Assembly (NCBI RefSeq): GCF_025717065.2
Contig: NZ_JAOVZO020000001.1
Coordinates: forward strand, 496,001-560,000
Origin: Tahibacter soli
Lineage (GTDB): Bacteria; Pseudomonadota; Gammaproteobacteria; Xanthomonadales; Rhodanobacteraceae
Length of the DNA: 64,000 bases
Direction: 5' to 3'
The position numbers and the translations under genes were made by a program. The first letter of the stretch is position 1. Every line of letters begins with the position of its first letter. Below are positions 13,990 to 54,966 of the stretch, one piece after another. The notes below the pieces were generated by a model, which saw only the letters and a list, made by a program, of their open reading frames with translations, made no database searches and had not been told where the DNA came from.

Positions 13990-14073
13990 GGCGCCGATTG
14001 TAGGGCCGCATCGCCGCCGAGTCGCCGGTCGAAAGGCGTGGGCATCTGGCATGATCGGGCGAGGGAGGAACCG

Positions 14074-17574: not shown

Positions 17575-17637
17575 CGGCTCGGCAGCGGACCGTACGGTCG
17601 ATGTCACAGGGCGTCGCGCACGAACGTCTGGCGAGGC

Positions 17638-18681: not shown

Positions 18682-18825
18682 GCGGCGATTGGTGCGCGCA
18701 GGGAAACACCGCGCGTCCGCCGCCGGGGCTACTCGCGCGCAACGGCGCTTCCTAGCATTCGTCCACACCCGCCCGGCGCCGCCACGGCGCGCCGGGTTCC
18801 CCGGTCTACCGCTCAGGAGGTTCCC

Positions 18826-35959: not shown

Positions 35960-35989
35960 TTGCCAACCGCTGAAACATTTCCCTAAGAT
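35960..35989 (+). promoter_or_regulatory. Putative promoter of the giant-protein/RHS operon
   Basis: TTGCCA (35960-35965) and TAAGAT (35984-35989) with an 18-base spacer sit in a local AT-rich stretch. A start near 35997 would give a leader of about 140 bases. That leader includes a CCCCC-TT-GGGGG hairpin (36110-36121) just before the ribosome binding site GAGGA (36126-36130). Confidence 0.4.
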
Positions 35990-36136: not shown

Positions 36137-39100
36137 ATGGTTCGCGCATTGCTACGCGTCGTCCTGTTCGTATCGCTGTGGGCGGCGTTCGCCGCGCCCG
36201 CCCAGTCGCCGCCGCCCGAGGTGGCGCACGGCCTGGCGTGGCTGCGCGGACAGGTGCAGGCCGACGGGTCGATCACGGGCGACGCCGCGTCGCTCGCGCA
36301 GGCCGACCAGGTTCGCGGCGAGGCCGCGCTGACCCTTGCGCTGCTCGACACCGCGCCGCCGGCGCTCGTCGCGCGCGTGGTCGCGAGCGACCCGCGCGTC
36401 GCCGAATTCGTCGCGCGCCGCGTGATGGTGCAGGCCGCGTCCGGCGGCGCGCCGGCAAGCGGCGATCTCGCCGCGTTCCGCAACGCCGACGGCGGTTTCG
36501 GCGGCGCCGCGGGTCGCGCGAGCTTCGCGCTCGATACGGCGCACGCGCTGCAGGCTTATGCCGCGGCGGCGGCGTTCGACGGTGCGATCGGCAACGCGGC
36601 TGTCGCACGACTGCGCGGCCTGCGCCGCGCCGACGGCGGCTGGGGCGTCGACGACGCGTCGAGCGTGTACTTCACCGCGCAGGTGCTCGCCGCGGCGCAG
36701 GCCTGGTCGCAGCGGCTGTCGGTCGCCGACCTTTCGGCGTGGTCGCGCGATTTCCTGCTCGCCCGCCGCGGCGCCGACGCGACGTTCGGCAACGTCGCCG
36801 ACAACGCCGTCGCGCTGTACGCCCTGGCGCGTGCGACGAACGACGCGCAGGTGCTCAATCCGCTCGCCGCCGCGCTGCGCGGCGCGCAGCTCGCCAACGG
36901 CAGCTGGGCCGACGATCCGTGGCAGACCGCGCTCGCGCTGCGTGCGCTCGCCTACGTCGGACAGGGTCCGCCGACGCCGACGCGCGGCAGCCTGATCGGC
37001 CGCGTCGTCGACCAGGCCGGCGGCGCGGCGCTCGCCGAAGTCACTTTGCAACTCGTGGAAGATTCGAGCTTTGCGACGTCGAGCGACGCCGAAGGCCGCT
37101 TCACGCTGTCCGGCGTCAATCCGGGCAGCTACACGCTGCGCGCCTCAAAGCTCGGCTACCAGCCGCGCGACATCGCGGTCGCGGTCGCCGCGGGCGACAC
37201 GCTGCAGCTCGGCGACATCCCGCTCGTCGCCGCGCCATTGACCGCCGGCGTATTCGGCACGGTGCGCGACCAGGCCGGCAATCCGCTGCGCGACGTGCTC
37301 GTCGCAGCCGGCACGCTGTCGGCGCTGACCGACACCGCGGGCGCGTTCCAGTTGAACGGCCTGTCGCCGGGTCCGACGCTGCTCAAGGCGACCAAGGCGA
37401 ACTACCGCGACGTGTCCGCGACGGTCGATTTCCAGGCGGGCTACCGCTACAACTTCTCGCCGACGATGTACCCGACGAACGTGACGCCGCCGGCGACGGC
37501 GACGCTGCGCGGCCGCCTGATCGATCAGGACACGTCGCAGCCGATCGTCGGCGCGAGCGCGAAACTCGGCAGCGCGACCGTCACGACGCCGGCGACCGGC
37601 AAGTTCGAATTCGCCGGCCAGGCGCCGGGCGCCTTCACGCTGACCCTGTCGGCCAACGGCTACCAGGGCGTTACCGCGAGCGGCACGCTGTCCAACGGCG
37701 TCAACGAACTCGGCGACATCCGTCTGCGCAAGCTGCCGTCCACGAGCACGCTGTCGGGCGTCGTGCGCGACGTCGCGACGCTCTCGCCGATCGTCGGCGC
37801 GAGCGTCGTCGTCGAAGGCCAGAGCGCGAGCGCGGTCAGCGGCCCCGACGGCCGCTACACGCTCTCGGGCATCACGGGCTTGCGCTTCAACGTCATCGCG
37901 AGCGCGCAGGGCTATCTCTCGAGCCGCATCGAGCTGTCGCTGACGCAGCCCGGCGCGACGCAGTTCGACATCGACCTCACCGCGCTCGCCGCGTCCGGCC
38001 TCGTGTTCGAAGAGGTCAAGACGAGCCGGCCCGTGTACGGGCCGAGCGACGAGATCGAACTCGAAGTCGAAGTGAAGAACACGACCGCGAACGCGGCCGA
38101 AATGATCGTCGACGCCGATGTCGTCGATCCGACCGGCAGCGTCGTACACGTGTTCAAGGCGAACCTGCGCGGCGCCGGCCAGTTCCCGCCGAACCTGCCG
38201 TTGTCGTTCGCGCCGAACAGCACGACCGAAGTCGAAATGGAATGGATCGCGCATCGCCTCGCGGCCGGCAACTACACGGTGCGCGCGCGCGGCATGGACA
38301 CGAGCGGCCGCGTGGTCGCCGAAGGCGCGACCGGCTTCACCGTGCGCTCCGAGCCGGTGCTGCGCGGCGCCGCGCTGGTCGATCCGCCGCTCGCGCAGGC
38401 CGGCACGTCGACGCCGGTCGCCCTCGCGGCCGACGTCATGAACATCGGCAACCTCGCGCTGCCGGCCGGCACGCTCGACCTGACGATCACCGTCGAGAAC
38501 CCCGACACGCAGAGCGCGACGCAGCCGCGCGCGAGCGAACGCCGCATCGCGGTGATCGCCGCGCTGAACAATCCGGTCGGCTTCGCGCGCGATGCGGACG
38601 CCAACCTCTATCTCGTGCGCGCAACCGAACGCAAGCTGCTCAAGATCGATCCGCAGGGCGTCGTCAGCGAACTGGCGACGCTGCCGCTGACGCCCGCGGC
38701 GCTCGCGCTCACGGCCGACCGCGTCGCGTGGATCGCGAGCACCGGCAAGCGCGTCTACAACGTGACGCCGGCCGGCGTCGTGACGTTCTTCGACCTCGTG
38801 CGCCTCACCGCGATCGCGACGGTCGCCGTCGCGCCGGACGGCAGCGCGTACTTCTCGGGTCAGTTCAGCGGCGTCGAAAACGGCCGCTCGATCACCGAGC
38901 AGCGCCTCGTGCGGCGCGCGCCCGCGGGCGACGAAACCGTGCTGTGGCGCAACGGTCTGGCGCAGCCCGCGGCCGTCGTCGCGGCCGACAACGGCGATCT
39001 CATCGTCGCCAACTACGGCGACGACACGCTCGCGCGCGTCACGGCGCAAGGCGCGGTCGCGCCGTTCGCGTCGGGCCTGAACCGTCCGCAGGGCCTCACG

Positions 39101-42100
39101 CGCGGACCCGACGGCGCGTACTACGTCAGCAACTCGGGCAACGGCACGATCGCGCGCGTGAGCGTCGACGGCGCCACGGTCACGACCTACGCGACCGGCC
39201 TCAACCAGCCGTACGACCTCAAGTTCGGCGACGACGGCACGCTCTACGTCGCCAACAACGCCGACGACAGCGTCGTGGCGATCGACGCCGCCGGCACGCG
39301 CCGCACGTTCGCCAAGGGCATCGCGAACCGGCCGACCGGCATGCGCTACGACGCGGCCGGCGACCTGTACATCGTCGGCGAAGACAACACGCTGCGCCGC
39401 AAGCGTCCCGACGGCACGGCACAGGTGCTCGCGACCGGTCTTGCCAGTCCGCAGGGCTTCGATTTCGCGGCGCCCGGCGTCGCGCTCGTCGCGAACTATT
39501 CCGACGGCACCGTCGCGAAGGTCGAGGGCGGCACGCGCACGGCGTTCGCCACGGGCCTGCGCAATCCGCGCGGCGTCGCGGTCAACGCCGACGGCGAGGT
39601 CTACGTCACCGAAGGCGGTGCGAACCGCATCGCGCGATTCGACGCGGCAGGCACCTCGCTCGGGCCGGTCGACAGCGTGCTGGTCACGCCGACCGACCTG
39701 CGCGTCGACGGCGCGGGCCGCGTGTTCGTGCGCAACACCACGCACGTCTCGGTGCTCGAAAACGGCGCGGCGCGCATCTTCGTGCGCGACTTCCCGGCGA
39801 CGAGCCTCGCGATCGACCCGGCGCAGCCGGGCGTGGTCGCGCTGCGCGGCGCGGACCTCTACCGCATCGGCCTCGACGGCGTCGCGGTGAAGATCCGCAC
39901 GCTGCCGGCCTCGTACCGCGGCATCGCCGTCGACGCCGGCGGCTTCGTCATCATCAACGACTACAGCAACCGGCGCCTGCAGCGCCTCAACGCCGACGGC
40001 ACGCAGACCGTCATCGCGACGCTGACCGACCTGCCCGACACGCTCGTGTCGACGCCGGCCGGTACGCTGTACGTCAAGACGAACACGCGCAAGATCCTGC
40101 GCGTCGAGGCCGACGGCACGACCACGCAGATCGCGTACGCGGTCGGCACCGAGTCGCTGTCGGACATCTCGCCCGGCGCCGACGGCAAGCTGCTCGCGTG
40201 GACCGGCAACCGCCTGTACGAGATCGATCCGGCGGCCGGTACGACCGTGCGCATCAAGGACGTCGTGCCGAGCGGCGCGACGCGCCTGCCCGACGGCCGC
40301 GTCGTCGCGTCGTTCTCCGGCGACCTCGAACTCGCGACCTACGACGCCGCGACCTACGCGCTCGTCTCGCGCATCGACGGCTTCGTCGCGCCGTGGGACA
40401 TCCTCTGGAACGGCACCGACTATCGCTTCATCGACAACGGCGGGCGCTTCTACCAGCTCGCGCGCGGCGGCTATCCGGTCAAGCTCGGCCTGTTCAACGG
40501 CCGCTTCCTCACGCGCGCCGGCAGCGAATACCTCATGACCACCGCGTCGAACGTGCAGCGCTGGACCGGCACGGGCGCCGCGGTGTACGTGACGCCGACG
40601 GGCAACAGCAGCGACCTGCAGGGCGTCGCCGGCCGGCCCGACGGCAGCTTCGCGGTGGCCGACCGCGGCTACAGCCGCGTCATCGAGTACAACGCATCGC
40701 GCGTCGTCGTCGCCGACCACGCCGGCATCGTGCGTCCGGTGGGCCTCGCGTTCGACGCGCAGGGCCGCCTGCACGTCGCGAACAATTCGTCCGGCACGGT
40801 CGCGCGCCTGTCGGCCGACGGCGCGGTCACGACGACGGTGACGCGCGTGTCGGCGCCGCGCTATCTCGCGTTCGACGCGCAGGGCCGCCTGTGGATCAGC
40901 AACGCGAGCGCGATCACGCGCATCGGCACCGACGGCGTCGCCACGACCGTGGGCGACTCGACGGCCGCCCAGGGCCTCTACGTCGACGCCACGCGCAGCG
41001 TCGTCGTCGACCAGTCGGCCGCGGTGCTGCGCCGCCTCGACGCGAACGTGTGGAAGCCGTTCGCCGCGGGCCTCGTGCAGCCCAAGGCCATGGCGCTGCG
41101 CGCCGACGGCCGCGTGCTCGTCGCCGACAACCGCAACGGCAGCGTGCTCGAATACGCGAACGGCGAACTGGCCACGATCGTCGTCGGCATGAGCGCGCCG
41201 GGCGCGCTCGCCCTCGACGCCGAAGACCGCGTGCTGATCGGCCGCGGCAACGGCTTCCTGAGCCGCTTCGACGGCACGCTGCTCGCCGACCTGCGCACGT
41301 CGTCGCTGCTCAACGACCATCCGTTCGCCGGCATCGTCGCCGCGCCGCAGGGCAAGATCCTCACGCTCAACTACGGCTACAACTCGGCCGCCGGGCGCTA
41401 TGAAACCGTCGCGCACGAGATCACGATCGTGCAGGCGGCGCAGCCGCCGGCGCCGGGTTCGGTCGTGCACACGGCGAGCCTGCCGATGAACGCGCTCGAC
41501 CCGAGCGACGACTTCACGCACTTCGACTTCGGCAGCTGGATGCCGCCCTACGGCGGCGACTTCAAGGTCAGCGTGCGCCGCGCCGACATCGGCACGGACG
41601 AAGCCGTGAACTTCGTGCACGTCGGCCCGCACGCGGTCGGCGAACTCACCGCCGCGCGCGAGGAGCTGCCGCCGGGCGACCGCGAACTGCCGATGTGCCT
41701 GCGCCTGACCGGCGCCGACTTCACGTCGCTGTCGCGCGTCGAGGTGAGCCAGGCGCGCCTGCTCGCCAACATCGTGCGGCCCAACGGCATGGCCGCCGAC
41801 CGCGCGGGCAACCTCTACTTCACCGACGAGACGAAGCTCTACCGCACGAGCCTGACCGGCCAGACCACGACCGTCGTCGACGGCCTGTCGACCGCGTTCG
41901 GCCTCGCGATCGACGACGACGAAAACCTGTACCTGCCGAACGACAACGCGACCACGCGCCGCGTCGATCTCGTGCGCGTCGACCCCAACGGCGTCAAGAG
42001 CGTCGTCGCCGACCTCGGCGTCGCGCGCGCGAACGGCGTCGTCGTCAACAGCCGCGACGAAATCCTCGTCGGCTCGCCGGGCAAGCTGATCAAGGTGACG

Positions 42101-45100
42101 CGCGACGGCACGGTCGCGCCGCAGACGGTGTCGGGCATGCCCGATCCGCGCGGCATCACGATCGACGGCCAGGACAACGTCTACGTGCAGAACGAGCAGC
42201 ACCTCGTGGCGATGATCAAGCCCGACGGCAGCGCGTTCCAGCTGTACTCGTACAACGTCGACAACACCGACCCGTACTTCGAGGGCGACGGCTATCCGAA
42301 CATCGCTGCCGACTGCGCCGACAACATGTACATCGCGCCGTACAACTGGGCGCGCATCGGCCAGAACAACACCGAAGAGCACTCGCTCGCGCAGATCGTC
42401 GCGCGCACGGGCCAGGTGGGCCTGCTGTTCGACACGCTGCGCATCCACCCGACGCTGACCGACATCGACTATCTCGCATACGACCGCTTCGGCGACCGCC
42501 TGCTGTTCTGGCAGGACTACTCGAACCAGATCTGGCAGGTGCCGGTCACCTGCGGTGCGATCGGCGTCAACGCGCATCTCGTCACGCGGCCGGGCCAGCG
42601 CCTGTCCGGCATGACGCGCGCGCCGGCGGCGGTCGTGCCCAAGCCCGACGGCAGCACCGAGTACGTGTGGAACCTGCGCGACGTCACCGCGCAGGGCGAC
42701 AGCGTCTGCTTCGACGCCGAGCAGGAAGGCCTCGTGCTCGGCGAGCGACGCAAGACGCTGGCCGATGCGTTCGTGACGTTCCAGAACAGCTTCTCGGCCG
42801 ACGACATCCGCGCGCCGGTCGACGTGCCGTACGTGCGCGTCGGCAACCTCACGGACATCGCGGTCTCGACCGACGCGGCCGAGTACCGCGCCGATGAAAC
42901 CGCGCTCGTCACGACGACGCTCGCCACGCGCGACGACGAGCCGGTCGCCGGCCGCCTCGTCGTCGACGTGTACGACGCGGCCGGCGTGCGCGTCGGCGGC
43001 GTCGTCGAGCAGATGGTCACGGTGCCGCCGCTCGCGCCGCTGCCGCTCGCCGGCAACTTCGGCATCGGCCGCATCCTGCCCGGCGAGTACGTCGTCAAGG
43101 CGACGCTCGTGCAGGACGACGCGCAGATGGCGACCGCGCAGACGAGCTTCGTCGTGCTGCCGGACGACGCGCAGGGCACCGCGACGTCGACGCTCGCGAC
43201 CGACAAGTTCGAGTATCTGCCCGACGACGTCGTCGCGATCAGCTCGCGCGTCACCAGCCTGTCGCAGAACGTGATTCTCGAAGCGCTGAGCCTGACGGTG
43301 CGCGTGTTCGACGCGTCCGGCACGCAGGTTTTCGGTTACGGCCATCCGATCGAGATCCTGCTGCCCGGCGCGACGCGCGAATTCGTCGCAAGCCAGCGCC
43401 TCGCCAACGCGCCGGCCGGTTCGTACCGCGTCGAGCAGGTGCTGACCGACGCCGCGGGCCACGTGTTCGACACGCGCGAGACGACCTACATCGTCTCGTC
43501 GTCGGCCGGCAACGGCCACGGCCTGCGCGGCACCGTCGTCGCGACGCCGGCGCAGGTGGAACAAGGCAACGATGTCGCGATTGCCGCCAATGCGGAAAAC
43601 CGCGGCAACGCCGATCTCGCCGGCGTCGTGCTGAAACTGACGGTGATCGATCCGGACAACCAGGCCGTGATCGCGAGCTGGCAGGCGCCGCCGGTCGCGA
43701 TCGCGCGCAACGCGTCCGCGCCGATGACCGCGACTTGGCCGACGACCGGCATTCCGGCCGGCGACTACGTGGTCGTGTTCGGCGCCGACGTCGCCGGCGG
43801 CAGCGTGACGCTCGCGCACCAGACCGTGCGCGTCGTCGTACCGAGCGTGCAGCTCGCCGCGCAGATCGACCTCGTCGCGCAGCCGCGCCAGCGCGCGCTG
43901 GCGCTGATCGACGCGGCCGCGCCGCAGGCGCAGCGCGCGTTCGTGCTCACGGCGGCCAGCGCCGTGGGCTACGAGCTCGAGTTCGTCACGAACCCAGGCG
44001 ACTTCGACACGGGCCTGCGCTCGGGCGTGTACCAGCTGTACCTGCTGCTCGGCGCTGACGCCGCGCTCGACGCGACGACGCAGCGCCTGCTGCGCGAAGC
44101 GGTGCATCGCGGCGAAGGGCTGATCGTCGCGAGCGGGGCGGGCGTCGTGTCCGACGCGCTCGCGCAGACGCTCGGCATCGCGCCGCGCACGCGGGCGGAA
44201 CCGGCCAAGGCCGAAACGCTGCGCGTCGTGCCCGGCGCGCCGCTGCCGCCGGCGAGCATGGCGCTCGCGCCGCCGCTCGCCGTGCAGACCACGCGCCTGA
44301 CCGCGGCGACGCCTTACGCCGAAGTCGACGCGCGCATGCCGGCCACGCCGGAACTGCGCACGCTGGCCGAGGCGGTCGCGCTGAACGGCCGCGTGGAGCT
44401 GGCGTATTCGGGCAGCGACGGCGGCATCAACGGCACCGGCCTGCGCCTGGAAGCGCTCGGCCGCCTGCGCAACGCCGACGGCACCGACCGCTACACGATC
44501 TGGCGCGTCCGCAACGGCGGCACGACGCTGCGCAGCGCGAAGCTCGCGAGCGTCGACGGTACGTGGAGCCGCGATCTCGACCTGCCGGGCAAGACCGAAA
44601 CGTGGCTCGCGAGCCCCGTCGTTGCGGGCGACGCGTCGCATCGCCTGACGCTCGGCGCGCAGACGCTCGCCACCGTCGCGGCGACGAGCGGCGCATTCAC
44701 CGATGCGCGCATCGTCGACGCGGGCACGTATCCCGGCGCGATCGCGCTGTGGGCGAACGCCACGAGCGGCGACGGCATCGAGTGGAGCGGCAGCCAGAAC
44801 ATCGCGTGGGGCGCGGTGCATTCGAACGCGTCGTTCCGCCTCAACGGTGCGCAGAACGTCATGCACGGGCCGGTGCGCTACGTGCAGACGCTGCAGAACG
44901 CCGGCGCGAGCAACACGTTCGACGTGCCGCCGCGCCGCGTCGCGCCGCACGATCTGCCGCTGCTGCTCGACCTCAACGACTATCGCCCGGGCGGTCGCGT
45001 CGCCGCGGCGGCCGGCGCGAAATACGTCGACGGCACGAGCGAGTGCGCGAAGAAGGGCGCGTGGCGCCGCAGCGGCGCGAACTTCCCGCTGCCGGCAGGC

Positions 45101-46114
45101 GTGTACTGGATTCCGTGCGACGTCGAGATGTCCGGCGCGTCGCTGTCGGGCAACGCGACGATCGTCGCGACCGGCACGATCCAGCTCTCGGGCGCGAGCG
45201 CGAACTTCAGTCCGTATTTCGAAGGCCTGCAGTTCGGCACGCTGCGCCAGGGCGGCGACGGCTTCAAGGTGGCCGCGGCGAGCGCGAAGATCGCCGGTCT
45301 CGTCTACTCGCCGTATGCGGGCGTCGAGCTGTCGGGTGCGCGCGGCGAATATCGCTGCGCCGTCGTCGGCGACCGCATCCGCATCAGCGGCGCGGCCGTG
45401 ACGTTCGATCCGCGTGCCTGCGCACTGGCGACGGTGCAGGAGCGCATGCCCGCGATCGTCGCGCACGGCTTCGGCCAGGGCCGCGCGGCATACGCGAGCT
45501 TCGACTGGACCGCCGCGCTCGCGACGTACGACGCGAACGCGACCGGCTTCCTGTCGCACCTGTTCGACGCGGCGATCGGCGAATCGGCGCCGGCGCAGCC
45601 GCTCCTGCGCACCGGCGCGGCGCTGCCCGTCGACCTGCGCGTGCGCAGCCTGCGCGACGGTTTCCGCGGCAGCCTGCGGCTCGCCGCCGCCGGCGACGCG
45701 ACGATCGCGCTGCCGGTGCCGCCGCAATGGCTCGTCGACCTGACGCAGACGAACGCGTTCGAGACGCAGGCGCTGGTCCTGCTCGGCAGCGGCACGCACA
45801 CGGCGCTGACCGCGACGGTCGCCGCCACCGCGCCGATCGCCGTCGATCCGCTCGCGACGCAGACGCTCGACGTCGGCCACGCGGCCGGCGAATCGATCGC
45901 CGACGTGATCGCCGCGGTGACCGCGCTCGGCAATCGCGACGCGCCGCTCGACGCGTCGCTCGCCGCGCTCGTGCGCGCACGCGATGCGCAGGCCCCGGCC
46001 GAAAAACGCGCCGCGCTGCTCGACGCCGCCGAGGCGGCCGGACGCTCGGCGCACGCGAACGCATCGTCGCTGCGTACGCGCATCGACTGGCTGATCTGGG
46101 GGGCGCCGCGATGA
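36137..46114 (+). CDS. Giant secreted multidomain protein (alpha-toroid, carboxypeptidase-regulatory repeats, NHL-like propellers)
   Basis: A 3325-residue exported protein starting MVRALLRVVLFVSLWAAFA (signal peptide, cut near APAQS), with GAGGA six bases before ATG 36137. Approximate layout: 25-275 squalene-cyclase-like alpha-toroid repeats (NADGGFGG, RADGGWGVDD, NGSWADDPWQTALALRAL). 280-615 holds four carboxypeptidase-regulatory-like beta-sandwiches (GRVVDQAGGAALAEV, GTVRDQAGNPLRDV). 630-800 are Ig/CARDB-like. 800-1770 and 1875-2155 hold many NHL/SMP-30-like propeller blades (DGAYYVSNSGNGTIARV). 2235-2570 are Ig-like again, 2855-3095 a serine/alanine-rich beta-helix-like part. It ends with no sorting signal I know and overlaps the RHS gene by four bases. 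Adhesion or toxin display is inference. Confidence 0.85.
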   Translation: MVRALLRVVLFVSLWAAFAAPAQSPPPEVAHGLAWLRGQVQADGSITGDAASLAQADQVRGEAALTLALLDTAPPALVARVVASDPRVAEFVARRVMVQAASGGAPASGDLAAFRNADGGFGGAAGRASFALDTAHALQAYAAAAAFDGAIGNAAVARLRGLRRADGGWGVDDASSVYFTAQVLAAAQAWSQRLSVADLSAWSRDFLLARRGADATFGNVADNAVALYALARATNDAQVLNPLAAALRGAQLANGSWADDPWQTALALRALAYVGQGPPTPTRGSLIGRVVDQAGGAALAEVTLQLVEDSSFATSSDAEGRFTLSGVNPGSYTLRASKLGYQPRDIAVAVAAGDTLQLGDIPLVAAPLTAGVFGTVRDQAGNPLRDVLVAAGTLSALTDTAGAFQLNGLSPGPTLLKATKANYRDVSATVDFQAGYRYNFSPTMYPTNVTPPATATLRGRLIDQDTSQPIVGASAKLGSATVTTPATGKFEFAGQAPGAFTLTLSANGYQGVTASGTLSNGVNELGDIRLRKLPSTSTLSGVVRDVATLSPIVGASVVVEGQSASAVSGPDGRYTLSGITGLRFNVIASAQGYLSSRIELSLTQPGATQFDIDLTALAASGLVFEEVKTSRPVYGPSDEIELEVEVKNTTANAAEMIVDADVVDPTGSVVHVFKANLRGAGQFPPNLPLSFAPNSTTEVEMEWIAHRLAAGNYTVRARGMDTSGRVVAEGATGFTVRSEPVLRGAALVDPPLAQAGTSTPVALAADVMNIGNLALPAGTLDLTITVENPDTQSATQPRASERRIAVIAALNNPVGFARDADANLYLVRATERKLLKIDPQGVVSELATLPLTPAALALTADRVAWIASTGKRVYNVTPAGVVTFFDLVRLTAIATVAVAPDGSAYFSGQFSGVENGRSITEQRLVRRAPAGDETVLWRNGLAQPAAVVAADNGDLIVANYGDDTLARVTAQGAVAPFASGLNRPQGLTRGPDGAYYVSNSGNGTIARVSVDGATVTTYATGLNQPYDLKFGDDGTLYVANNADDSVVAIDAAGTRRTFAKGIANRPTGMRYDAAGDLYIVGEDNTLRRKRPDGTAQVLATGLASPQGFDFAAPGVALVANYSDGTVAKVEGGTRTAFATGLRNPRGVAVNADGEVYVTEGGANRIARFDAAGTSLGPVDSVLVTPTDLRVDGAGRVFVRNTTHVSVLENGAARIFVRDFPATSLAIDPAQPGVVALRGADLYRIGLDGVAVKIRTLPASYRGIAVDAGGFVIINDYSNRRLQRLNADGTQTVIATLTDLPDTLVSTPAGTLYVKTNTRKILRVEADGTTTQIAYAVGTESLSDISPGADGKLLAWTGNRLYEIDPAAGTTVRIKDVVPSGATRLPDGRVVASFSGDLELATYDAATYALVSRIDGFVAPWDILWNGTDYRFIDNGGRFYQLARGGYPVKLGLFNGRFLTRAGSEYLMTTASNVQRWTGTGAAVYVTPTGNSSDLQGVAGRPDGSFAVADRGYSRVIEYNASRVVVADHAGIVRPVGLAFDAQGRLHVANNSSGTVARLSADGAVTTTVTRVSAPRYLAFDAQGRLWISNASAITRIGTDGVATTVGDSTAAQGLYVDATRSVVVDQSAAVLRRLDANVWKPFAAGLVQPKAMALRADGRVLVADNRNGSVLEYANGELATIVVGMSAPGALALDAEDRVLIGRGNGFLSRFDGTLLADLRTSSLLNDHPFAGIVAAPQGKILTLNYGYNSAAGRYETVAHEITIVQAAQPPAPGSVVHTASLPMNALDPSDDFTHFDFGSWMPPYGGDFKVSVRRADIGTDEAVNFVHVGPHAVGELTAAREELPPGDRELPMCLRLTGADFTSLSRVEVSQARLLANIVRPNGMAADRAGNLYFTDETKLYRTSLTGQTTTVVDGLSTAFGLAIDDDENLYLPNDNATTRRVDLVRVDPNGVKSVVADLGVARANGVVVNSRDEILVGSPGKLIKVTRDGTVAPQTVSGMPDPRGITIDGQDNVYVQNEQHLVAMIKPDGSAFQLYSYNVDNTDPYFEGDGYPNIAADCADNMYIAPYNWARIGQNNTEEHSLAQIVARTGQVGLLFDTLRIHPTLTDIDYLAYDRFGDRLLFWQDYSNQIWQVPVTCGAIGVNAHLVTRPGQRLSGMTRAPAAVVPKPDGSTEYVWNLRDVTAQGDSVCFDAEQEGLVLGERRKTLADAFVTFQNSFSADDIRAPVDVPYVRVGNLTDIAVSTDAAEYRADETALVTTTLATRDDEPVAGRLVVDVYDAAGVRVGGVVEQMVTVPPLAPLPLAGNFGIGRILPGEYVVKATLVQDDAQMATAQTSFVVLPDDAQGTATSTLATDKFEYLPDDVVAISSRVTSLSQNVILEALSLTVRVFDASGTQVFGYGHPIEILLPGATREFVASQRLANAPAGSYRVEQVLTDAAGHVFDTRETTYIVSSSAGNGHGLRGTVVATPAQVEQGNDVAIAANAENRGNADLAGVVLKLTVIDPDNQAVIASWQAPPVAIARNASAPMTATWPTTGIPAGDYVVVFGADVAGGSVTLAHQTVRVVVPSVQLAAQIDLVAQPRQRALALIDAAAPQAQRAFVLTAASAVGYELEFVTNPGDFDTGLRSGVYQLYLLLGADAALDATTQRLLREAVHRGEGLIVASGAGVVSDALAQTLGIAPRTRAEPAKAETLRVVPGAPLPPASMALAPPLAVQTTRLTAATPYAEVDARMPATPELRTLAEAVALNGRVELAYSGSDGGINGTGLRLEALGRLRNADGTDRYTIWRVRNGGTTLRSAKLASVDGTWSRDLDLPGKTETWLASPVVAGDASHRLTLGAQTLATVAATSGAFTDARIVDAGTYPGAIALWANATSGDGIEWSGSQNIAWGAVHSNASFRLNGAQNVMHGPVRYVQTLQNAGASNTFDVPPRRVAPHDLPLLLDLNDYRPGGRVAAAAGAKYVDGTSECAKKGAWRRSGANFPLPAGVYWIPCDVEMSGASLSGNATIVATGTIQLSGASANFSPYFEGLQFGTLRQGGDGFKVAAASAKIAGLVYSPYAGVELSGARGEYRCAVVGDRIRISGAAVTFDPRACALATVQERMPAIVAHGFGQGRAAYASFDWTAALATYDANATGFLSHLFDAAIGESAPAQPLLRTGAALPVDLRVRSLRDGFRGSLRLAAAGDATIALPVPPQWLVDLTQTNAFETQALVLLGSGTHTALTATVAATAPIAVDPLATQTLDVGHAAGESIADVIAAVTALGNRDAPLDASLAALVRARDAQAPAEKRAALLDAAEAAGRSAHANASSLRTRIDWLIWGAPR

Positions 46115-49100
46115 GAAGCGACGGCCTGCGGACGAACGGAAACTCTTGCAAAGTGAACAACGAAGCGCCAGGCGCGCGGGGCGACGGCATGAAGCACAGC
46201 GGCACGAAGCGTAGCGGCAACCGCGCACAGCGCATCCTCGGGCGCGGCTACGCGCCGCTCGTCGCCCTCGCCGCGATGCTGTGGACCGCGGCGGCCGGTT
46301 TCGCCGCGCCGTCGCCGGCCATCGTCGCGAACGTCGTCGCGCACGGCATCGCCGCGCAGGTCGAGGCGCCGGCCGCGGCGCCGCGCGAGGTCGAACTCGA
46401 CGAGGCCTACGGCGCGCTCGAACGGCTCGCGCAGTCGCTGCGCGTGATCGAAACGGGCAAGGGCGACCTGCCGCGCCTGCGCACCGGCGTCGACGTGTCG
46501 CAGCTCGCCGTCGACCTGCTCGCGTCCGGCGCCGAACTCGCCGACCGCGACGCGCTGACCCGGCTCGCGCAGACGAAAGACGCCGGTCCGCCCGACGGCC
46601 GCCGCGCGGTGCTCGGCGAGCTCGCCGCGCGCCACGGCGAATTCGCGGCGATCCTCGAACGCCTGCGCGCGGCCGAAATCGCGCGCGACGACGCGGCGCG
46701 GTTCCGCGCGGTCGTCGACCTGGCGCGCCTGCTCGACACGCGCCCTGCCGCGTCGACCGCGACGCGTTTCGATCCGGCGAGCGCACGCGGCTTCTCGGCC
46801 GACAAGAAGAAACTGCCGAAGCCCGGCGCCGGCGACGAGCGCGTGCCGGCCAAGAACGCCGCCGCGGCGAAGCTCGATCCGCCCGGCGCGGCCGACCTCG
46901 CCGAAACCGACGAGATCGTGCTGACCGCGCAGATTCGCGCGAAGGCCGAAGAACTGGGCCGCAACCCGGTCGCGATCCGCAACTGGGTGTACAACAACAT
47001 CGACTACTCGCCGGGCTACGGCTCGACGCAGAATGCGCAGAAAACCCTTTTTGCAAAACGCGGCAACGCGTGGGATATCCACTCGCTGCTGATCGCGCTG
47101 CTGCGCGCGTCGAACATTCCGGCGCGCTACGTCTCCGGCGCGGTCGAGCTGCCGATCGAACGCATCCAGGAATGGCTGCCGGTCGCGAACGCGAACGTCG
47201 CGGCCGACCTTTTCAGCGCGGCCGGCGTGCCGACGACGCTGCTCACCGCGGGCGGCTCGATCCGCGCGCTGCGTTTCGAGCACGTCTGGGTCGAGGCGTG
47301 GGTCGACTTCGTGCCGTCGCGCGGCGCGCGCAACGCGACGCCCGACAGCTGGGTGCCGATGGACGCGGCGATCAAGGCGTACGCGACGACGCCGCCGGTC
47401 GCATACCTGCAGCACGTCGGCTTCGACGCGCAGGCCGCGCAGACGGAAATTCTCGCCGGTTCGCAGCAGGGACCGGGCTGGATCACCGGCATCGACGTCA
47501 ACAAGATCGGCGCGGTGTACGACCGCCTCGGCCGGCAGGCGCTCGACTACGTCAATGCGAATCCCGCAGCCGACCCGGCCGCGACGTTCGGCGCGCGCAA
47601 GATCGTCGCGCTCGACCTGCCGGTGCTCGAAGGCACGCTGCCGTACAACGTCTACACGCCGCAGCCGCGCCGCGCCGCCGCGCTGCCGGCGAGCGCGCAG
47701 CATGCGATCAGCGTGCAGCTGTACGCGAGCCCCGGCGACATCGGCCTCGAATCGCCGCAGTTCGTCGTGCAGATGCCGCTCGCGCGCATGGGCCTCTCCG
47801 CGTTCCAGGTCGAGTACCGCGGCGCGAGCGCCGCGGATGTCGCGACGCTCAGGCAGTACGCCGCGGGCAATACCGAAACGCTGTCGGCGAGCAGCCTGCG
47901 CGTGGCCGCGGCGCTCAAGCTCGGCGGCCAGGTCGTGCAGCAGGGCGGCGCGGTCACCTACGGCACCGACCAGTACTGGCAGGTGCAGCTGCGCGATCCG
48001 CTCGGCGCGTTCACGCAGCAGTCCGAGCCGTACAAGTTCCCGGCTGGCACGTCGATCGCGTTCGTCACCGACACCAACGGCGTGACGCCCGAACTCGCCG
48101 AGGCGATGACGGCCGGCTACGGTTCGCGCCAGAACCTGCCGATCGGCGACGCGCTGGCGATGGGCGGCCTGCAGTTCTGGCTGATGCACGACCTGTTCGA
48201 CGGCTGGGTCGCGCAGGCGCGCGGCGCGACCGGCGTGCGCATGCCGAGCGTCGGCGCGTTCGCGACGTCGATGCGCGTGGGCTTCTTCTTCGGCGTGCCG
48301 CGCAACGCGAGCACGCGCGGCTTCACCAGCGACGTCAAGACCGTGCGCTACGCGCTCGTCGGCGCCGACGCCGAGGCCACGCGCCGCGCCGCGACGCAGA
48401 TGGGCGCGATGGGCTCGTTCGCCGAAGGCGCGACGTGGGATCTGCTCACCGGCGGCGCCGTCGGCAGCGGCCTCACCGCGAGCACGCTGCTCTTGCGCGC
48501 GAACGAGGCGAAGATTCCGATCTACCGCATCGACGCGTCGAACGTCGATCAGTACCTGCCGCAGCTCGCGCTCGCGGCCGACGACAAGGCCGACATCCGC
48601 GCCGCGGTCAACGCGGGCCTGTCGGTGCTCGCGCCGGCCGCGGAGACGACGATCGGCGGCTGGAGCGGCACGGGCTATCTGATCCAGGACCCGGTCAGCG
48701 GCGGCGGCATCTGGCGCGTGTCGGGCGGTCTGAACGGCGCGATCAACGTCGGCTGCGTGGCGAAAGCCGTGCTGCTCAACGTGCTGTGCAAGCTGATGTT
48801 CAACAAGCTCGTGCGCTTCTTCCTCGGCCTCACGAGCCCGGGCGCGATGGCGGCGATGCTGCTCGAACGCCTGATCATCAGCGCGATTCCGGTGGTCGGT
48901 CCGATCATCGCGATCGTGCAGGTGGCGATCGCCGTCGCGCAGGCGACGGCGATGGTCATACGCTGGGTGCGCAGCGTCGAGGCGATGATCGAGGAATTGA
49001 CGCCCGAGCAGCTCGGCATCCTCGGCATCGCCGACCTCAACGAGGCGCTGTGCTCGCTCGGCAGTCCGTGCTTCGACTCGAACTTCTTCGACGACATCGG

Positions 49101-52100
49101 CGACAACTTCACCTCGGAAGGCTTCTCCAACGACTTCTGGGGCAACTTCATGGGCGGCGCGTTCGCCGGCGCCGGCGGCCCCGCGGAAGGCAATCCGGTG
49201 TCGGTCGGCAACGGCATCAAGTGGCAGTGGGAGCAGGACTACGCCGGCGACGGCGCCTACCCGCTGTCGTTCGTGCGCACCTATTCGAGCTACGTGCCGA
49301 ACGGCAGTTCGACCGGCAACAAGTGGTCGCACAATTACCAAAGTGCCATCCGCGTCGCGCCGGCGCCGCTCGACGAAGACGGCGAGCCGCTCGGCAACGC
49401 GCCCGCCGCGCTGGTCGTACACGGCGACGGCACGTACTTCCAGTTCACGCGGCGCAACGCGGACTGGATCGGCGAGGGCAACCTGCCGGAGAAACTCGTG
49501 CGCTTCGCCGACGCGAACGACGCGACGACCGGCTGGGAAGTCACGCGCCTGACCGACGAGCTCGAGCACTACGACGCGAGCGGCCGTCTCGCGTGGATAC
49601 GCAATCCCGCGGGCCTCAAGCACACGCTCGCCTACGACGCGAACGGCCGGCTCGAATCGGTCAGCGACGATTTCGGCCGCGCGCTGCGCTTCGCGTACGA
49701 CCCGGCGACCGGCGAACTCGCCTCGATGACCGATCCGGCGAACCGCGTGACGCGCTACGAATACGCGCCGAACGGCAACGCCGTGAAAGTGACGTATCCC
49801 GACGATTCGACGCGGCAGTACCACTACGAAGACCTGAGCCTGCAGAGCCACCTGACCGGCCTGACCGACGAGCGCGGCGTGCGCTACGCGACGTGGGCGT
49901 ACGACTACCGCGGCCGCGCGGTGCTGTCGATGCACGCGGGCGGTGCGGACAAGTACACCTTCAGCTATCTGGACAATGCGACCGTGGTGACCGATCCGCT
50001 CGGCACCGTGCGCACGTACAAGTACCAGCGTTTCAACGAGCGGCCGTACCTGACCGAAGTGACGCAGGCGTGCTCGGGCTGCTCGGCCGGCGGCGTCGCG
50101 AAGCTGCACTACGACGGCCGCGGCCTCGTCGACCGCGCGACCGACTTCAACGACAACGCGACGACGTTCACGCGCAACGCGCGCGGCCTCGAGGAATCGC
50201 GCACCGAGGCGTCGGGCACGCCGCAGGCGCGCACGATCGCGACGCAGTGGCACGCGACGTGGCGCAAGCCGACGCGCCAGACCGTACCGACCGCGACCGG
50301 CAACCGCGTCACGACGTGGACGTACGACGCCGCCGGCAACCTGCGCACGCAGGCGGTGACCGCGGGCGCCGAGACGCGCACGTGGACGTTCACGCCGAAC
50401 GCGCGCGGCCAGATCGAAACGATCGACGGTCCGCGCACGGACGTCGCCGACGTGGCGCAACTGCGCTACGACGCGGCGACCGGCAATCTCCTGACGAGCA
50501 CGAGCGCGACCGGCCAGGTTACGCGCTACACGGGCTACGACGCGCACGGTCGCCTCACCGAAGAGCGCGACGCGAACGGGCTCGTCACGCAGTACCGCTA
50601 CGACCTGCGCGGACGCGTGACGCACGAGATCGTGAAGGTCTCCGACGCCGACGCCGGCGAAACGACGCGTTTCGACTACTGGCCGACCGGCGTCGTTCGT
50701 CGCGTGACGTTGCCGGACGGCAGTTTCCTTGACTACGCGTACGACGACGCGATGCGCCTGACCGACGTCGTCGACAGCACCGGCAACACGGTTCACTACA
50801 CGCTCGACGGCGCCGGAAACCGCACGCAGGAGGTGTCGCGCGACGCGCAGGGCAATCTTGCGATGTCGATGGGGCGCGTGATCGACGCGCTCGGTCGCGT
50901 CGAAGCGGTGCTCGGCGCCGCACCGGGCGAGGTCGCGCGTTTCACGTACGACGGCAACGGCAACGAAAAGTCGACCACCAGCGCGCTCTCGCACGTGACG
51001 CGGCGCACCTACGACGCGCGCGACCGGCTCGTCGGCGCCGAGGCGCTGGACGCGGCCGATCCGGCGCGCGGCGCGGTCGTCTACGGCTACGACGCCGCCG
51101 ACAACGTCACGTCGTTCACCGATCCGCGCAACCTCGTCACGAGCTACGCCTACACCGGCTTCAACCAGCTCGCCACGTCGACGAGTCCCGACGCGGGCAC
51201 CGTGCGGTACACGTACGACGCGGCAGGCAACGTCGCGACGCGCACCGACGCGCGCAACCAGCGCATCGTCTACGCGTACGACGCGGGCAATCGTCCGCTG
51301 CAGTACCGCTTCGGCGCCGCCGACGCGGCGGCGCCGTCGAATCCGGCGGCGCTCGCGAGCGTCGAGGAAACGATCGACTTCACGTACGACGCGGCCGGCG
51401 GCGACGGCGCCCAGGGCCGGCTGACCGGATTCGTCGACGGCAGCGGCGCGACGCGCTACGTCTACGATCGCGAAGGCCGCGTCGTCGAGCGCACGCAGTC
51501 TCAGGGCAACGCTTCGGCGGCGCTGACGAAGACGACGCAATATCGCTACGACGCTGGCGGCCGCGTCGAATCGGCGACGCTGCCGAGCGGCGCGGTGATC
51601 GGCTACGCGTACGACGCGAACGGCCGCGTTCTGACGATCACCGTGAACGGCGTGGTCGTCGTCAAGGACGTCGAATACTTTCCGTTCGGCGATCCGGCGT
51701 CGTGGAGCGAAGGCGGCGACGCCGGCGCGTTCCGCTACGTACGAACCTACGATGCGAACGGCCGGGTCGGCGCCTACACCGCTGCCGGTTCGCAGCGTAC
51801 GCTCGGCTACGATCCCGCGGGTCGCGTCGTCTCGCTCGCCGGGAACGCGCCGGACGATGCGTCGTGGACGTTCTCGTACGACGGCCGCGACCGCCTGAGC
51901 GGTGCGGCGAACGCCGCGGCGCAGGGCGCGGACGCCGGTGTCGCCTTGTCGTGGACGCTCGATGCGACCGGCAACCGCACGGCGACGTCGCGCGTACAGG
52001 GTTCGCAAACGACGAACGCCGCGTATGCGATCGACGCCGCGAGCAATCGCATCGCCGCGATCGACGGCGTCGCGCGCACGTACGACGCCGCGGGCAACAC

Positions 52101-53124
52101 GGCCAGCGACGGCGTGCGCCGCTTCAGCAACAACGCGCACAACCGCCTGTCGGTGACGCGTGCGCAGAACACGGGCGTCGTCCTGGCGCGCTATGCATAC
52201 AACGCCTGGGGCGAGCGCGTCTGCAAGGCGCGCGGCGACAGCGATTGTCCGCGCGGCGCCGGTGCGGGCGGGCCGCCCGACGCCGGCAGGGGCAGCTTCA
52301 CGCAGTACGTGTACGACGAGCAGGGACGCCTGCGCGGCGAGTACGGCGCCGACGGCGCGCCGATCGCCGAGCACGTGTGGCTCGAGAACACGCCGGTCGC
52401 GGTGATCAGGCCGGCGGCGTTCGCGGCGAGCCACGGCGGACTGAACGTCGGCGGGGCCACGGTATTCTGGGTCGAACCCGATCACCTCGAAGCGCCGCGC
52501 GCCGTCGTCAACGCATCGCACGTCGCGATCTGGCGCTGGGACTCCGATCCGTTCGGCAACGCGGTCGCGAACGAAACCGCCGCCGCGCCGGCGATCGCCG
52601 CGTCGTTCACGTACGACCTGCGCTTCCCGGGGCAGCAGTTCGACGCGGAAACCGCGACGCACTACAACTACTTCCGCGATTACGATCCGGCACTCGGCCG
52701 CTATCTGCAAGCCGATCCGGCCGGCATTGCCGGCGGCATCAATCCGTATCTCTACGTCGACGCCGCGCCGCTCGCGGCAACCGATCCGTTCGGCCTGGGG
52801 CCGCGCCGCCCGCCCCACAACGCGAACGCGAACCTGTCGCGCGGCGGGGTCGTTCTGTGCGGACGTTCGTTCACCAGCGGCGGGGCGGCCGGGCGGTCGT
52901 GGAATCATCAGGCCGACTCGCACACCGAAGCGAAGGCGTGCAATTTCTTCCGGCCGATGTGCCAGGCGGGCGACGTACTGACGATCGTCGGCGACTACGC
53001 GCCGTGCTCGCGCTGCAAGGGACGCATGAACGATCTGCACCGCGACTGCGGCGTGACGTGCGTCTACCAATGGGGAGACAATACCTGGACTTCGACGGAC
53101 AAGCCGAGACGGCGCAGAAGGTGA
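46111..53124 (+). CDS. RHS-repeat polymorphic toxin with C-terminal deaminase-type tip
   Basis: A 2337-residue exported RHS protein. A hydrophobic signal/anchor lies near residues 46-65 (LVALAAMLWTAAAGFA); ATG 46189 (MKHSGTK) is an alternative start. Residues 288-420 are transglutaminase-like but lack the catalytic Cys (GNAWDIHSLL, Ala320), while His391 and Asp418 remain. About 875-950 is hydrophobic. DUF6531 starts near 1027 (GNPVSVGNGIKWQWEQDY), YD/RHS repeats fill about 1150-2165, and the RHS core is 2166-2229 (FPGQQFDAETATHYNYFRDY, YLQADPAGIAGGINPYLYVD). The 108-residue tip has His2271-x-Glu2273 and Pro-Cys2299-x-x-Cys2302, the zinc signature of cytidine-deaminase-fold toxins. The start overlaps the giant gene's stop. 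Confidence 0.9.
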   Translation: MRSDGLRTNGNSCKVNNEAPGARGDGMKHSGTKRSGNRAQRILGRGYAPLVALAAMLWTAAAGFAAPSPAIVANVVAHGIAAQVEAPAAAPREVELDEAYGALERLAQSLRVIETGKGDLPRLRTGVDVSQLAVDLLASGAELADRDALTRLAQTKDAGPPDGRRAVLGELAARHGEFAAILERLRAAEIARDDAARFRAVVDLARLLDTRPAASTATRFDPASARGFSADKKKLPKPGAGDERVPAKNAAAAKLDPPGAADLAETDEIVLTAQIRAKAEELGRNPVAIRNWVYNNIDYSPGYGSTQNAQKTLFAKRGNAWDIHSLLIALLRASNIPARYVSGAVELPIERIQEWLPVANANVAADLFSAAGVPTTLLTAGGSIRALRFEHVWVEAWVDFVPSRGARNATPDSWVPMDAAIKAYATTPPVAYLQHVGFDAQAAQTEILAGSQQGPGWITGIDVNKIGAVYDRLGRQALDYVNANPAADPAATFGARKIVALDLPVLEGTLPYNVYTPQPRRAAALPASAQHAISVQLYASPGDIGLESPQFVVQMPLARMGLSAFQVEYRGASAADVATLRQYAAGNTETLSASSLRVAAALKLGGQVVQQGGAVTYGTDQYWQVQLRDPLGAFTQQSEPYKFPAGTSIAFVTDTNGVTPELAEAMTAGYGSRQNLPIGDALAMGGLQFWLMHDLFDGWVAQARGATGVRMPSVGAFATSMRVGFFFGVPRNASTRGFTSDVKTVRYALVGADAEATRRAATQMGAMGSFAEGATWDLLTGGAVGSGLTASTLLLRANEAKIPIYRIDASNVDQYLPQLALAADDKADIRAAVNAGLSVLAPAAETTIGGWSGTGYLIQDPVSGGGIWRVSGGLNGAINVGCVAKAVLLNVLCKLMFNKLVRFFLGLTSPGAMAAMLLERLIISAIPVVGPIIAIVQVAIAVAQATAMVIRWVRSVEAMIEELTPEQLGILGIADLNEALCSLGSPCFDSNFFDDIGDNFTSEGFSNDFWGNFMGGAFAGAGGPAEGNPVSVGNGIKWQWEQDYAGDGAYPLSFVRTYSSYVPNGSSTGNKWSHNYQSAIRVAPAPLDEDGEPLGNAPAALVVHGDGTYFQFTRRNADWIGEGNLPEKLVRFADANDATTGWEVTRLTDELEHYDASGRLAWIRNPAGLKHTLAYDANGRLESVSDDFGRALRFAYDPATGELASMTDPANRVTRYEYAPNGNAVKVTYPDDSTRQYHYEDLSLQSHLTGLTDERGVRYATWAYDYRGRAVLSMHAGGADKYTFSYLDNATVVTDPLGTVRTYKYQRFNERPYLTEVTQACSGCSAGGVAKLHYDGRGLVDRATDFNDNATTFTRNARGLEESRTEASGTPQARTIATQWHATWRKPTRQTVPTATGNRVTTWTYDAAGNLRTQAVTAGAETRTWTFTPNARGQIETIDGPRTDVADVAQLRYDAATGNLLTSTSATGQVTRYTGYDAHGRLTEERDANGLVTQYRYDLRGRVTHEIVKVSDADAGETTRFDYWPTGVVRRVTLPDGSFLDYAYDDAMRLTDVVDSTGNTVHYTLDGAGNRTQEVSRDAQGNLAMSMGRVIDALGRVEAVLGAAPGEVARFTYDGNGNEKSTTSALSHVTRRTYDARDRLVGAEALDAADPARGAVVYGYDAADNVTSFTDPRNLVTSYAYTGFNQLATSTSPDAGTVRYTYDAAGNVATRTDARNQRIVYAYDAGNRPLQYRFGAADAAAPSNPAALASVEETIDFTYDAAGGDGAQGRLTGFVDGSGATRYVYDREGRVVERTQSQGNASAALTKTTQYRYDAGGRVESATLPSGAVIGYAYDANGRVLTITVNGVVVVKDVEYFPFGDPASWSEGGDAGAFRYVRTYDANGRVGAYTAAGSQRTLGYDPAGRVVSLAGNAPDDASWTFSYDGRDRLSGAANAAAQGADAGVALSWTLDATGNRTATSRVQGSQTTNAAYAIDAASNRIAAIDGVARTYDAAGNTASDGVRRFSNNAHNRLSVTRAQNTGVVLARYAYNAWGERVCKARGDSDCPRGAGAGGPPDAGRGSFTQYVYDEQGRLRGEYGADGAPIAEHVWLENTPVAVIRPAAFAASHGGLNVGGATVFWVEPDHLEAPRAVVNASHVAIWRWDSDPFGNAVANETAAAPAIAASFTYDLRFPGQQFDAETATHYNYFRDYDPALGRYLQADPAGIAGGINPYLYVDAAPLAATDPFGLGPRRPPHNANANLSRGGVVLCGRSFTSGGAAGRSWNHQADSHTEAKACNFFRPMCQAGDVLTIVGDYAPCSRCKGRMNDLHRDCGVTCVYQWGDNTWTSTDKPRRRRR

Positions 53125-53127
53125 CGC

Positions 53128-53760
53128 ATGGCGCAGACGCCGTTTGGTCAGATCGCAGCGCGATTCTTCAAGGAGCATTTTCGACCGCCGACGCCGTGCC
53201 TGCCTGCCGACTATCCGAAGTGTCCCGAGCTCGCCGGCACGCGGCTCGGCGAGCTGCTGAAGTCGTTCCGGCCCGATTCGCCGCTGGTTGACGGGCACAA
53301 CCGACTGCTCGGGCCGGACCGGCTCGAAGCCGAAGGCGGCGTCGTCGTGTTCGCCGAGGAAAACCAGAACGTCAGCTACTGGGGCGTCGCGGTCGCGGAT
53401 CTCGCGGCCGCGGTCCCGCCCGTGCTGCGTTCGGAAAACGTCGCGCCGGTGACATGGCAGCGCGAATTCGACAGCCTCGACGCTTTCCTGTCGGTGTTCT
53501 GCCTGTGGCAGGCGCTGAACGGCGCGTGGCCGCGACACGGCCTGGCGACGCGCAAGGCGGCAATGTCCAAAAAGCTGCAAAGTCATCTCGAGCCGATCGA
53601 CGTCGGCGCGAACGGCTCGGGGCTGTCGTTCTTCGCGCGCGGCACCGACCTCATCGTCGCGACGGCCGGCAAGGAGCTTTTCGCCGCGGCGAACGGCGAC
53701 GCCGCGTGGAACGCGTTTCTCGCCGTCTCGCCGGCGATGCGCGAACTGCACGACGAGTAG
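53128..53760 (+). CDS. Probable immunity protein for the RHS toxin
   Basis: A 210-residue cytoplasmic protein starting three bases after the RHS stop, with GAAGGTG upstream. The central stretch VVVFAEENQNVSYWGVAV resembles the ENQ..W signature of SMI1/KNR4 (SUKH)-like and related immunity proteins. There is no signal peptide or membrane helix, as expected if it neutralises a toxin in the cytoplasm. Position directly after an RHS tip is the main argument. Family identity is uncertain. Confidence 0.7.
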   Translation: MAQTPFGQIAARFFKEHFRPPTPCLPADYPKCPELAGTRLGELLKSFRPDSPLVDGHNRLLGPDRLEAEGGVVVFAEENQNVSYWGVAVADLAAAVPPVLRSENVAPVTWQREFDSLDAFLSVFCLWQALNGAWPRHGLATRKAAMSKKLQSHLEPIDVGANGSGLSFFARGTDLIVATAGKELFAAANGDAAWNAFLAVSPAMRELHDE

Positions 53761-53809: not shown

Positions 53810-54953
<1,144 letters not shown>

Positions 54954-54966
54954 AGCGCGTGCCGTC

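Follow-up and report, generated by a model that had tools for sequence, protein, structure and literature searches.

We describe three adjacent genes in a stretch of Tahibacter soli DNA of 64,000 nucleotides (contig NZ_JAOVZO020000001.1, positions 496,001 to 560,000; hereafter the window), which probably form a two-protein, adhesin-linked polymorphic toxin system together with its immunity protein. On the plus strand, a gene for a giant adhesin-like protein of 3325 residues (36137–46114) is followed by a gene for an RHS toxin of 2337 residues (46111–53124, with a possible start at 46189) and by a gene for an immunity-like protein of 210 residues (53128–53760); all three frames are intact. The toxin is of a known type and its partner is new. 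In relatives of the toxin the N-terminal carrier module and the adhesin gene beside it are conserved, the catalytic Cys of the carrier's transglutaminase-like domain is lost, and the C-terminal toxin tip is exchanged, sometimes together with the gene downstream.

The giant and toxin genes overlap in an ATGA at 46111 and three bases separate the toxin stop codon from the ATG of the 210-residue gene, so that the three coupled genes reported in a preliminary description of the sequence are confirmed. An alternative toxin start lies 26 codons further on at Met27 (46189), before a stretch that we read as signal-peptide-like. A promoter-like site precedes the giant gene (35960–35989, plus strand) and a second, at 53806, precedes a hydrolase gene; both are consensus matches only, and the two in the region compare with a mean of 0.6 in shuffled sequences. 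The gene preceding the giant, for a multicopper oxidase, has the opposite orientation. Because of this and of the placing of the two promoter-like sites, the giant, toxin and 210-residue genes fit a single operon.

The adhesin-like protein

By eye, the giant protein begins with a Sec-type signal peptide (residues 1–23). An alpha/alpha-toroid-like domain at residues about 21–280 (36197–36976, plus strand) was assigned by way of relatives: the N-terminal 280 residues are 37–50% identical to the N-terminal parts of four of them, and the toroid families SQHop, TED and Prenyltrans give weak, sub-cut-off matches in the full-length protein of one relative (L095) and matches over the cut-off in related single-domain proteins (L034 and L092). 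Next come four CarboxypepD_reg (transthyretin-like) domains, matched in Pfam as four stretches with E = 2.9e-45 (36986–37990, plus strand), and a middle part of NHL/Vgb-type beta-propellers (38594–42691, plus strand), which matches Vgb_lyase (E = 1.4e-31), NHL (E = 2.3e-20) and the teneurin NHL model (E = 2.2e-11). A CARDB-type Ig-like rod (42704–43801, plus strand) is indicated by the predicted structure and by a Pfam match that, with E = 1.5e-4, is slightly below the curated cut-off. In the model of the remaining C-terminal part (43802–46111, plus strand; mean pLDDT 86, pTM 0.56) we read alpha/beta and beta-rich segments; its fold matches are generic Ig rods and its DUF7305-like match reaches merely E = 0.07. 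Of the modules named in the preliminary description, the CarboxypepD_reg, propeller and CARDB-type parts are recognised by Pfam and the toroid-like part through relatives; together they suggest a modular adhesin made up of toroid, CarboxypepD_reg rod, propeller head and CARDB rod.

The middle part varies between lineages. Among 49 adhesin middles there were Vgb/NHL propellers (14 and 8), FG-GAP (13 and 12), VWA (7), IgGFc-binding (6) and other families; nidogen parts are also present in relatives' giants. The Vgb/NHL, FG-GAP, VWA and IgGFc-binding families are usual in surface binding proteins. At some loci of relatives the adhesin is split into two genes, and at L051 a pAdhesive_15 gene lies between the adhesin and toxin genes.

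Carrier, cage and tip of the RHS protein

The carrier module (46189–49188, plus strand), delimited from the sequence and a structural model, consists of a signal peptide identified by eye, a helical part, an inactive transglutaminase domain, a conserved region and a hydrophobic stretch. The transglutaminase-like domain occupies residues 272–419 (46924–47367, plus strand; Transglut_core, E = 1.4e-18). In the carrier model (mean pLDDT 77.5) a fold is assigned to this part only, from a match to 3isr with Z = 13.2 and a root-mean-square deviation of 3.6 over 153 residues; the best Foldseek E-value was 2.4e-3. Alignment to 3isr places an Ala at the position of the catalytic Cys. Cys is absent from this position in all 115 relatives and the His is retained in 114, most of the 115 having been chosen by a pattern that demanded Ala or Asp at the Cys position; in a fairer sample of relatives found by profile, Cys was present in 0 of 19, the profile itself having been built from Cys-less rows. 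An active transglutaminase was rejected as the catalytic Cys is replaced in both the window protein and its relatives.

The RHS cage follows (49189–52815, plus strand), with the Rhs-associated core at its end, as assigned from Pfam, NCBIfam and solved Rhs structures. The RHS repeats recognised in the preliminary description are clear (RHS_repeat, E = 2.5e-69, with DUF6531 and the Rhs-associated core also matched); it had missed the transglutaminase-like domain and the nature of the tip. The latter (residues about 2236–2337; 52816–53121, plus strand) is a Pput_2613-like (BaDTF3) deaminase domain by its match to Pput2613-deam (PF14427, E = 1.5e-11, over the cut-off), with the zinc-site motifs HxE and PCxxC present as HTE and PCSRC. 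It also matches solved BaDTF3 proteins (best E = 1e-7); all three alignments displayed pair the PCxxC motif, and the best of them pairs HTE as well. For a BaDTF3 deaminase of Taylorella equigenitalis, toxicity and mutagenesis with C-to-T changes are described in E. coli (PMC7901873). The window tip is by homology a putative DNA-mutating-type deaminase toxin.

The 210-residue protein has a SUKH-like look by eye. A copy 68% identical to it lies in L025 of genome G011 (6247–6948, minus strand) with no deaminase tip in that stretch, possibly an orphan immunity gene; the gene adjoining this copy looks SGNH hydrolase-like by eye.

The partner gene in relatives

Of 147 genomes sampled from the family, 16 had a match to the carrier module and 5 to the C-terminal part of the giant. 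A CARDB-type giant stands upstream of 12 of the 14 carrier genes of this set, directly downstream of one (L010/L011) and beside neither end of one (L021); in L018, L019, L022, L026, L027 and L028 the N-terminal part of the giant falls outside the stretch, so that the toroid is not in view. The order at L010/L011 (the same locus as L041) is toxin, downstream gene, adhesin, and the pair is thus rearrangeable, with the tip's neighbour between. The genome of the window itself has two further transglutaminase-RHS genes on one contig (G000:C18; L018 and L019), with CARDB-type giants upstream, and a third, divergent transglutaminase gene (G000:C14; L020) with no partner match in its 20-kb stretch. 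The tip of L018 gave no Pfam match.

A wider set came from named genomes, in which the transglutaminase alignment matched 305 places, the best being kept as 77 loci. Linkage was counted in six frames for the 68 genes whose domain is preceded by 3.5 kb or more, an adhesin being accepted up to 4.5 kb upstream or up to 9 kb downstream; greedy gene calling (46/68 upstream) hid genes in high-GC loci. Adhesin parts adjoin 55 of the 68 genes (48 upstream, 7 downstream), a toroid-type gene alone adjoins 4 (2 on either side) and 9 have neither. By form, the 62 RHS-less genes have an adhesin upstream in 43 cases and downstream in 6, a toroid-type gene only in 2 upstream and 2 downstream, and none in 9, and the six RHS-bearing genes have an adhesin upstream in 5 and downstream in 1. 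The overlapping loci L073 and L103 share a contig and a single adhesin gene, which is counted once upstream and once downstream. As a control, for 48 of these genes with longer flanks the adhesin was found on the same strand upstream in 35 and downstream in 5, and on the opposite strand, on either side, in none; other genes at those loci have adhesin parts upstream in 9 of 155 cases.

The giant commonly accompanies RHS-less forms and the toxins of the window's own family, and not RHS forms at large. The preliminary description had proposed that the giant may be a surface partner, delivery scaffold or receptor-binding arm of the toxin, and this is partly supported: a partner gene is conserved in the window's family (12 of 14 upstream and one downstream) and is lacking in gammaproteobacterial RHS forms (0 of 8, see below). 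RHS itself does not define the partnership, most toxins encoded beside such giants being RHS-less, and the giant may act as a receptor-binding arm, an anchor or a scaffold.

Relatives without RHS

RHS is absent from 76 of the 103 labelled rows of the set used for a tree. Many of the RHS-less toxin proteins have about 1050 residues; a conserved glycine-rich stretch closes the core, and mostly 100–250 residues without common sequence come after it. A membrane span is predicted in the last 130 residues of 38 of 60 RHS-less toxins (two or more spans in 32), compared with 34 of 284 other genes (at least two in 15) and 4 of 60 adhesins (at least two in none). From these hydrophobic spans only, the bare membrane-spanning tips may be ionophore-like. 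The 60 RHS-less tips include matches to nine Pfam families at E ≤ 0.01, among them NlpC/P60 (2), NucA/NucB (2) and DUF6310 (4), with weak matches to SLT, CHAT and CHAP in one each. Three of ten RHS tips were matched, namely the window deaminase, NucA/NucB in L014 and a weak HNH in L066 (E = 0.025); the other seven had none.

At the desulfuromonad/syntrophobacter-type loci L036, L040, L048, L075, L092 and L105 a gene for about 310–390 residues is often found 3' of the toxin gene; two such proteins were scanned and gave no Pfam match. By eye, the tips of L048, L092 and L105 resemble caspases, and one has a weak CHAT match.

RHS-bearing and RHS-less forms interleave in a quick tree of the cores (n = 110). 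The RHS label needs 5 changes, taken without direction, on this tree, at least 4 of them being forced by supported branches; L028 and L112 end too early and were set to unknown, the count otherwise being 7 changes with 6 forced. The window lies in a well-supported group of six rows which all bear RHS (with L029, L030, L060, L066 and L085), inside a larger mixed group. The RHS cage is an optional part on a shared carrier, and the RHS-less relatives imply that the carrier does not require it. We also considered a toxin-free adhesin/transglutaminase surface system to which RHS toxins were added later, and dropped it because most complete RHS-less C-termini (100–250 residues) vary, some with toxin-type domains.

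Exchange of tips, and the genes downstream

Pairs of complete genes of at least 900 residues were compared, with the exception of a duplicate locus, L106 (the same locus as L039) and two genes whose tips were uncut. In 110 pairs the cores are at least 55% identical, and the tip score is below 80 in 101 of these: 92 pairs do not exceed the shuffled maximum of 56 and 9 lie between 57 and 79. The remaining 9 reach 80 or more. The last 130 core residues are related in all 110. The median identity is 0.61 over the core and 0.59 over its last 130 residues, compared with 0.26 over the tip. As members recur among the pairs, non-overlapping pairs were also counted, and the tip score is below 80 in 14 of 18. 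Downstream genes are alike in 4 of 8 tip-related pairs and in 0 of 98 tip-unrelated pairs.

The clearest case is that of L053 and L059, from the Alcanivorax group, whose cores are 97% identical and whose tips and downstream genes are unrelated. L059 in turn shares both tip and downstream gene with L080, their cores being 60% identical, and the adhesins of L080 and L089 are 95–97% identical along their length, with cores at 65% and unrelated tips. Three RHS relatives compared with the window are 32–49% identical to it in the shell and 14–22% in the tip, one of them having a doubtful end frame; the L029 reading is apparently out of frame near its end, which makes its tip comparison weak. A short downstream gene (same strand, fewer than 230 residues, start −60 to 100 nucleotides from the stop) stands behind 44 of the 65 RHS-less toxin genes and 6 of the 11 with RHS, compared with 59 of 284 control genes. 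L051 and L108 have shortened carrier genes with other tips in series behind the full toxin gene, resembling orphan cassettes.

The idea that the adhesin middle is swapped as fast as the tip was rejected: in close relatives the identity of the middle tracks that of its flanks, and the adhesins are alike end to end, middle included, differences between middles being found between lineages. With a conserved carrier and exchangeable C-terminal tips, the family is, to judge from its sequences, one of polymorphic toxins that have the carrier in common and an adhesin for a partner. The preliminary assignment of the window gene to the polymorphic toxins accordingly stands, since the tip and downstream gene vary in relatives and the carrier and adhesin persist.

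Proposed mechanism and alternative explanations

We suggest the following sequence of events. Both large proteins would be exported by means of the Sec-type signals seen by eye. The carrier, with its dead transglutaminase domain, may dock on the adhesin at the cell surface, perhaps on the toroid, and the adhesin head would contact a neighbouring cell. The RHS core would cut the tip free inside the cage; the tip might then enter the neighbour and deaminate cytosine in its DNA, and the 210-residue protein would protect siblings. For RHS toxins without a type VI secretion system (T6SS), a conserved adhesin partner is a candidate means of presentation and targeting; if the proposal is true, it places a deaminase of the DNA-mutating type in an adhesin-linked delivery route. 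A broader proposal, which we consider somewhat less likely than not, is that the relatives make up a widespread class of contact-dependent delivery systems undescribed before: a two-protein surface device of toroid adhesin and inactive-transglutaminase carrier, the toroid docking the dead transglutaminase fold, with interchangeable toxins that are bare and ionophore-like or enzymatic in most lineages and RHS-caged in others, and without type V secretion or T6SS.

Several observations weigh against this reading. The 210-residue protein matches no family, nor any PDB sequence at E = 10, and its only close homologue, the copy in G011, adjoins an unrelated gene and not an RHS toxin. Downstream genes are unlike in the other 4 of the 8 tip-related pairs. 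The expected pairing of transmembrane (TM) tips with TM downstream genes was not borne out, a TM tip giving no prediction of its neighbour (23 of 31 against 8 of 12), and Pfam recognises nothing in most of the tips. Because middles do not swap in close relatives, there is no support for target-switching by the head. G+C content at third codon positions (GC3) is also uninformative: it is 0.845 in the tip and 0.852 in the immunity gene against 0.938 in the giant and 0.914 in the RHS body, and this drop, considered as a sign of recent arrival, was dismissed since the two following genes share it (0.888 and 0.856).

The partner gene is also less regular in a gammaproteobacterial sample, for which 369 genomes were drawn and 20 of the stronger places fetched. 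Ten RHS-less genes there have an adhesin upstream in 4 cases and downstream in 1, a toroid-type gene in 2 and none in 3 (L109, L112, L116 and L120 run off the stretch or contig and may be RHS forms, L120 having an RHS match), and eight RHS genes have an adhesin in 0, a toroid-type gene in 6 and none in 2, so that overall 8 of 18 have a toroid-type gene alone and 5 of 18 no partner. Pfam backs three of the six toroid partners of RHS genes (L115, L119 and L123, two of them below the cut-off) and gives no toroid match for those at L117, L118 (a piece of 143 residues) and L122; the toroid model behind these calls was built from the window's own toroid. The toroid is likely to be the factor common to the partners, a conclusion resting partly on that model.

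Of the alternatives, a giant that is a general matrix or biofilm adhesin, merely sharing a promoter and perhaps an export path with a toxin that is released or acts independently, seems to us unlikely, though it has points in its favour. Partnerless transglutaminase genes exist (9 of 68 and 5 of 18), and the reversed order at L010/L011 and at several desulfuromonad-type loci means that a fixed order is not needed; against this, linkage on the same strand is seen across several phyla, compared with 0 of 48 for the opposite strand and 9 of 155 among the other genes at these loci. We regard as most improbable a split teneurin-like receptor in which the giant supplies the transthyretin-like (TTR) and NHL parts and the second gene the YD shell, serving adhesion or kin recognition with a vestigial tip. 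The giant's match to the teneurin NHL model, a weak match of a relative's protein to teneurin TTR (E = 8e-4, below the cut-off) and the similar module sets described for bacterial teneurin-like proteins (PMC6425310) speak for it; yet NHL and YD shell form one chain there and are separate here, most relatives lack RHS, their middles are often FG-GAP, VWA or IgGFc-binding and not NHL, and their tips are exchanged like toxins. There is similarly very little probability, in our view, that the RHS toxin is directed against eukaryotic hosts or predators, the giant serving as a host-cell adhesin: the IgGFc-binding, nidogen and VWA-type parts of relatives' giants would suit such a role, and the linkage of immunity-like genes to the toxins and the peptidoglycan-directed tips of some relatives (NlpC/P60 in two, a weak SLT in one) argue against it.

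Genes around the operon

An alpha/beta hydrolase gene and then a lipase-chaperone gene lie 3' of the operon (53937–55968). Lipases of this type are usually exported by type II secretion. The assembly has two type II secretins over the cut-off. Elsewhere in the window, a frame of 2366 residues on the minus strand (12493–19593) appears by eye to be a shadow frame in GC-rich DNA; its last ~300 residues are GTPase-like.

Comparison with known systems

The RHS cage and Rhs-associated core are shared with the T6SS Rhs effectors of solved structure, including Tse5, Tre23 and Tse15. The window protein differs from these in having no PAAR or VgrG domain among its Pfam matches, and its genome in having no match to VipA/TssB in the whole assembly, the one T6SS marker searched; the preliminary statements that T6SS genes are absent and that the operon is unlike VgrG/PAAR-linked RHS systems are upheld to that extent. 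The complete Pfam and NCBIfam lists for the RHS protein contain neither the SpvB and TcB beta-propeller features of Tc toxins nor a two-partner secretion (TPS) domain. In a comparison with alpha-2-macroglobulin, the toroid part of the giant contains no Cys, and the giant's C-terminal part gives fold matches to Ig rods, at TM-scores no higher than 0.15 among the matches listed.

In contact-dependent growth inhibition (CDI), a single chain, CdiA, carries the stick, the receptor-binding part and the toxin, and CdiB exports it, whereas adhesin and toxin are two proteins here. No TPS-type domain was found in the giant among the best 25 of its 28 Pfam families, the remainder being weaker than E = 0.15; CdiB was not searched. 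The RHS-less forms resemble the CDI ionophore toxins, described as having highly diverse multi-helix membrane tips, every one paired with a small immunity protein of its own (PMC11630599), in their membrane tips and in the small gene behind. By description, MafA and MafB of Neisseria offer a likeness in gene order, the gene of a conserved surface protein lying upstream of that of a polymorphic toxin, its possible interaction partner (PMC3482391); MafA differs from the giant in being a lipoprotein and limited to Neisseria. Bacterial teneurin-like proteins, described as having TTR- and Ig-like parts, an NHL propeller, a YD shell and a variable C-terminus (PMC6425310), share this module set with the window pair, but are single chains, whereas in the window the NHL and TTR-like parts are in a separate gene and a transglutaminase module precedes the YD shell.

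By titles and abstract openings, the adhesin/carrier pair was not described among the literature matches listed. The closest known relatives of the window protein are the inactive-transglutaminase RHS toxins of Zhang et al. 2012 (PMC3482391), with which it shares a signal peptide, a transglutaminase domain lacking the catalytic residue or residues and placed N-terminal to RHS, the RHS array and a variable C-terminal toxin; the dead domains were proposed there to anchor such toxins by binding peptides. In the passages of that paper drawn on here, RHS always follows the domain and neither an adhesin nor a toroid partner is named, whereas the relatives found here are mostly without RHS and usually have a partner gene. 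New elements are the adhesin partner, the prevalence of RHS-less forms among the relatives examined and the exchange of tips on the carrier, sometimes together with the downstream gene.

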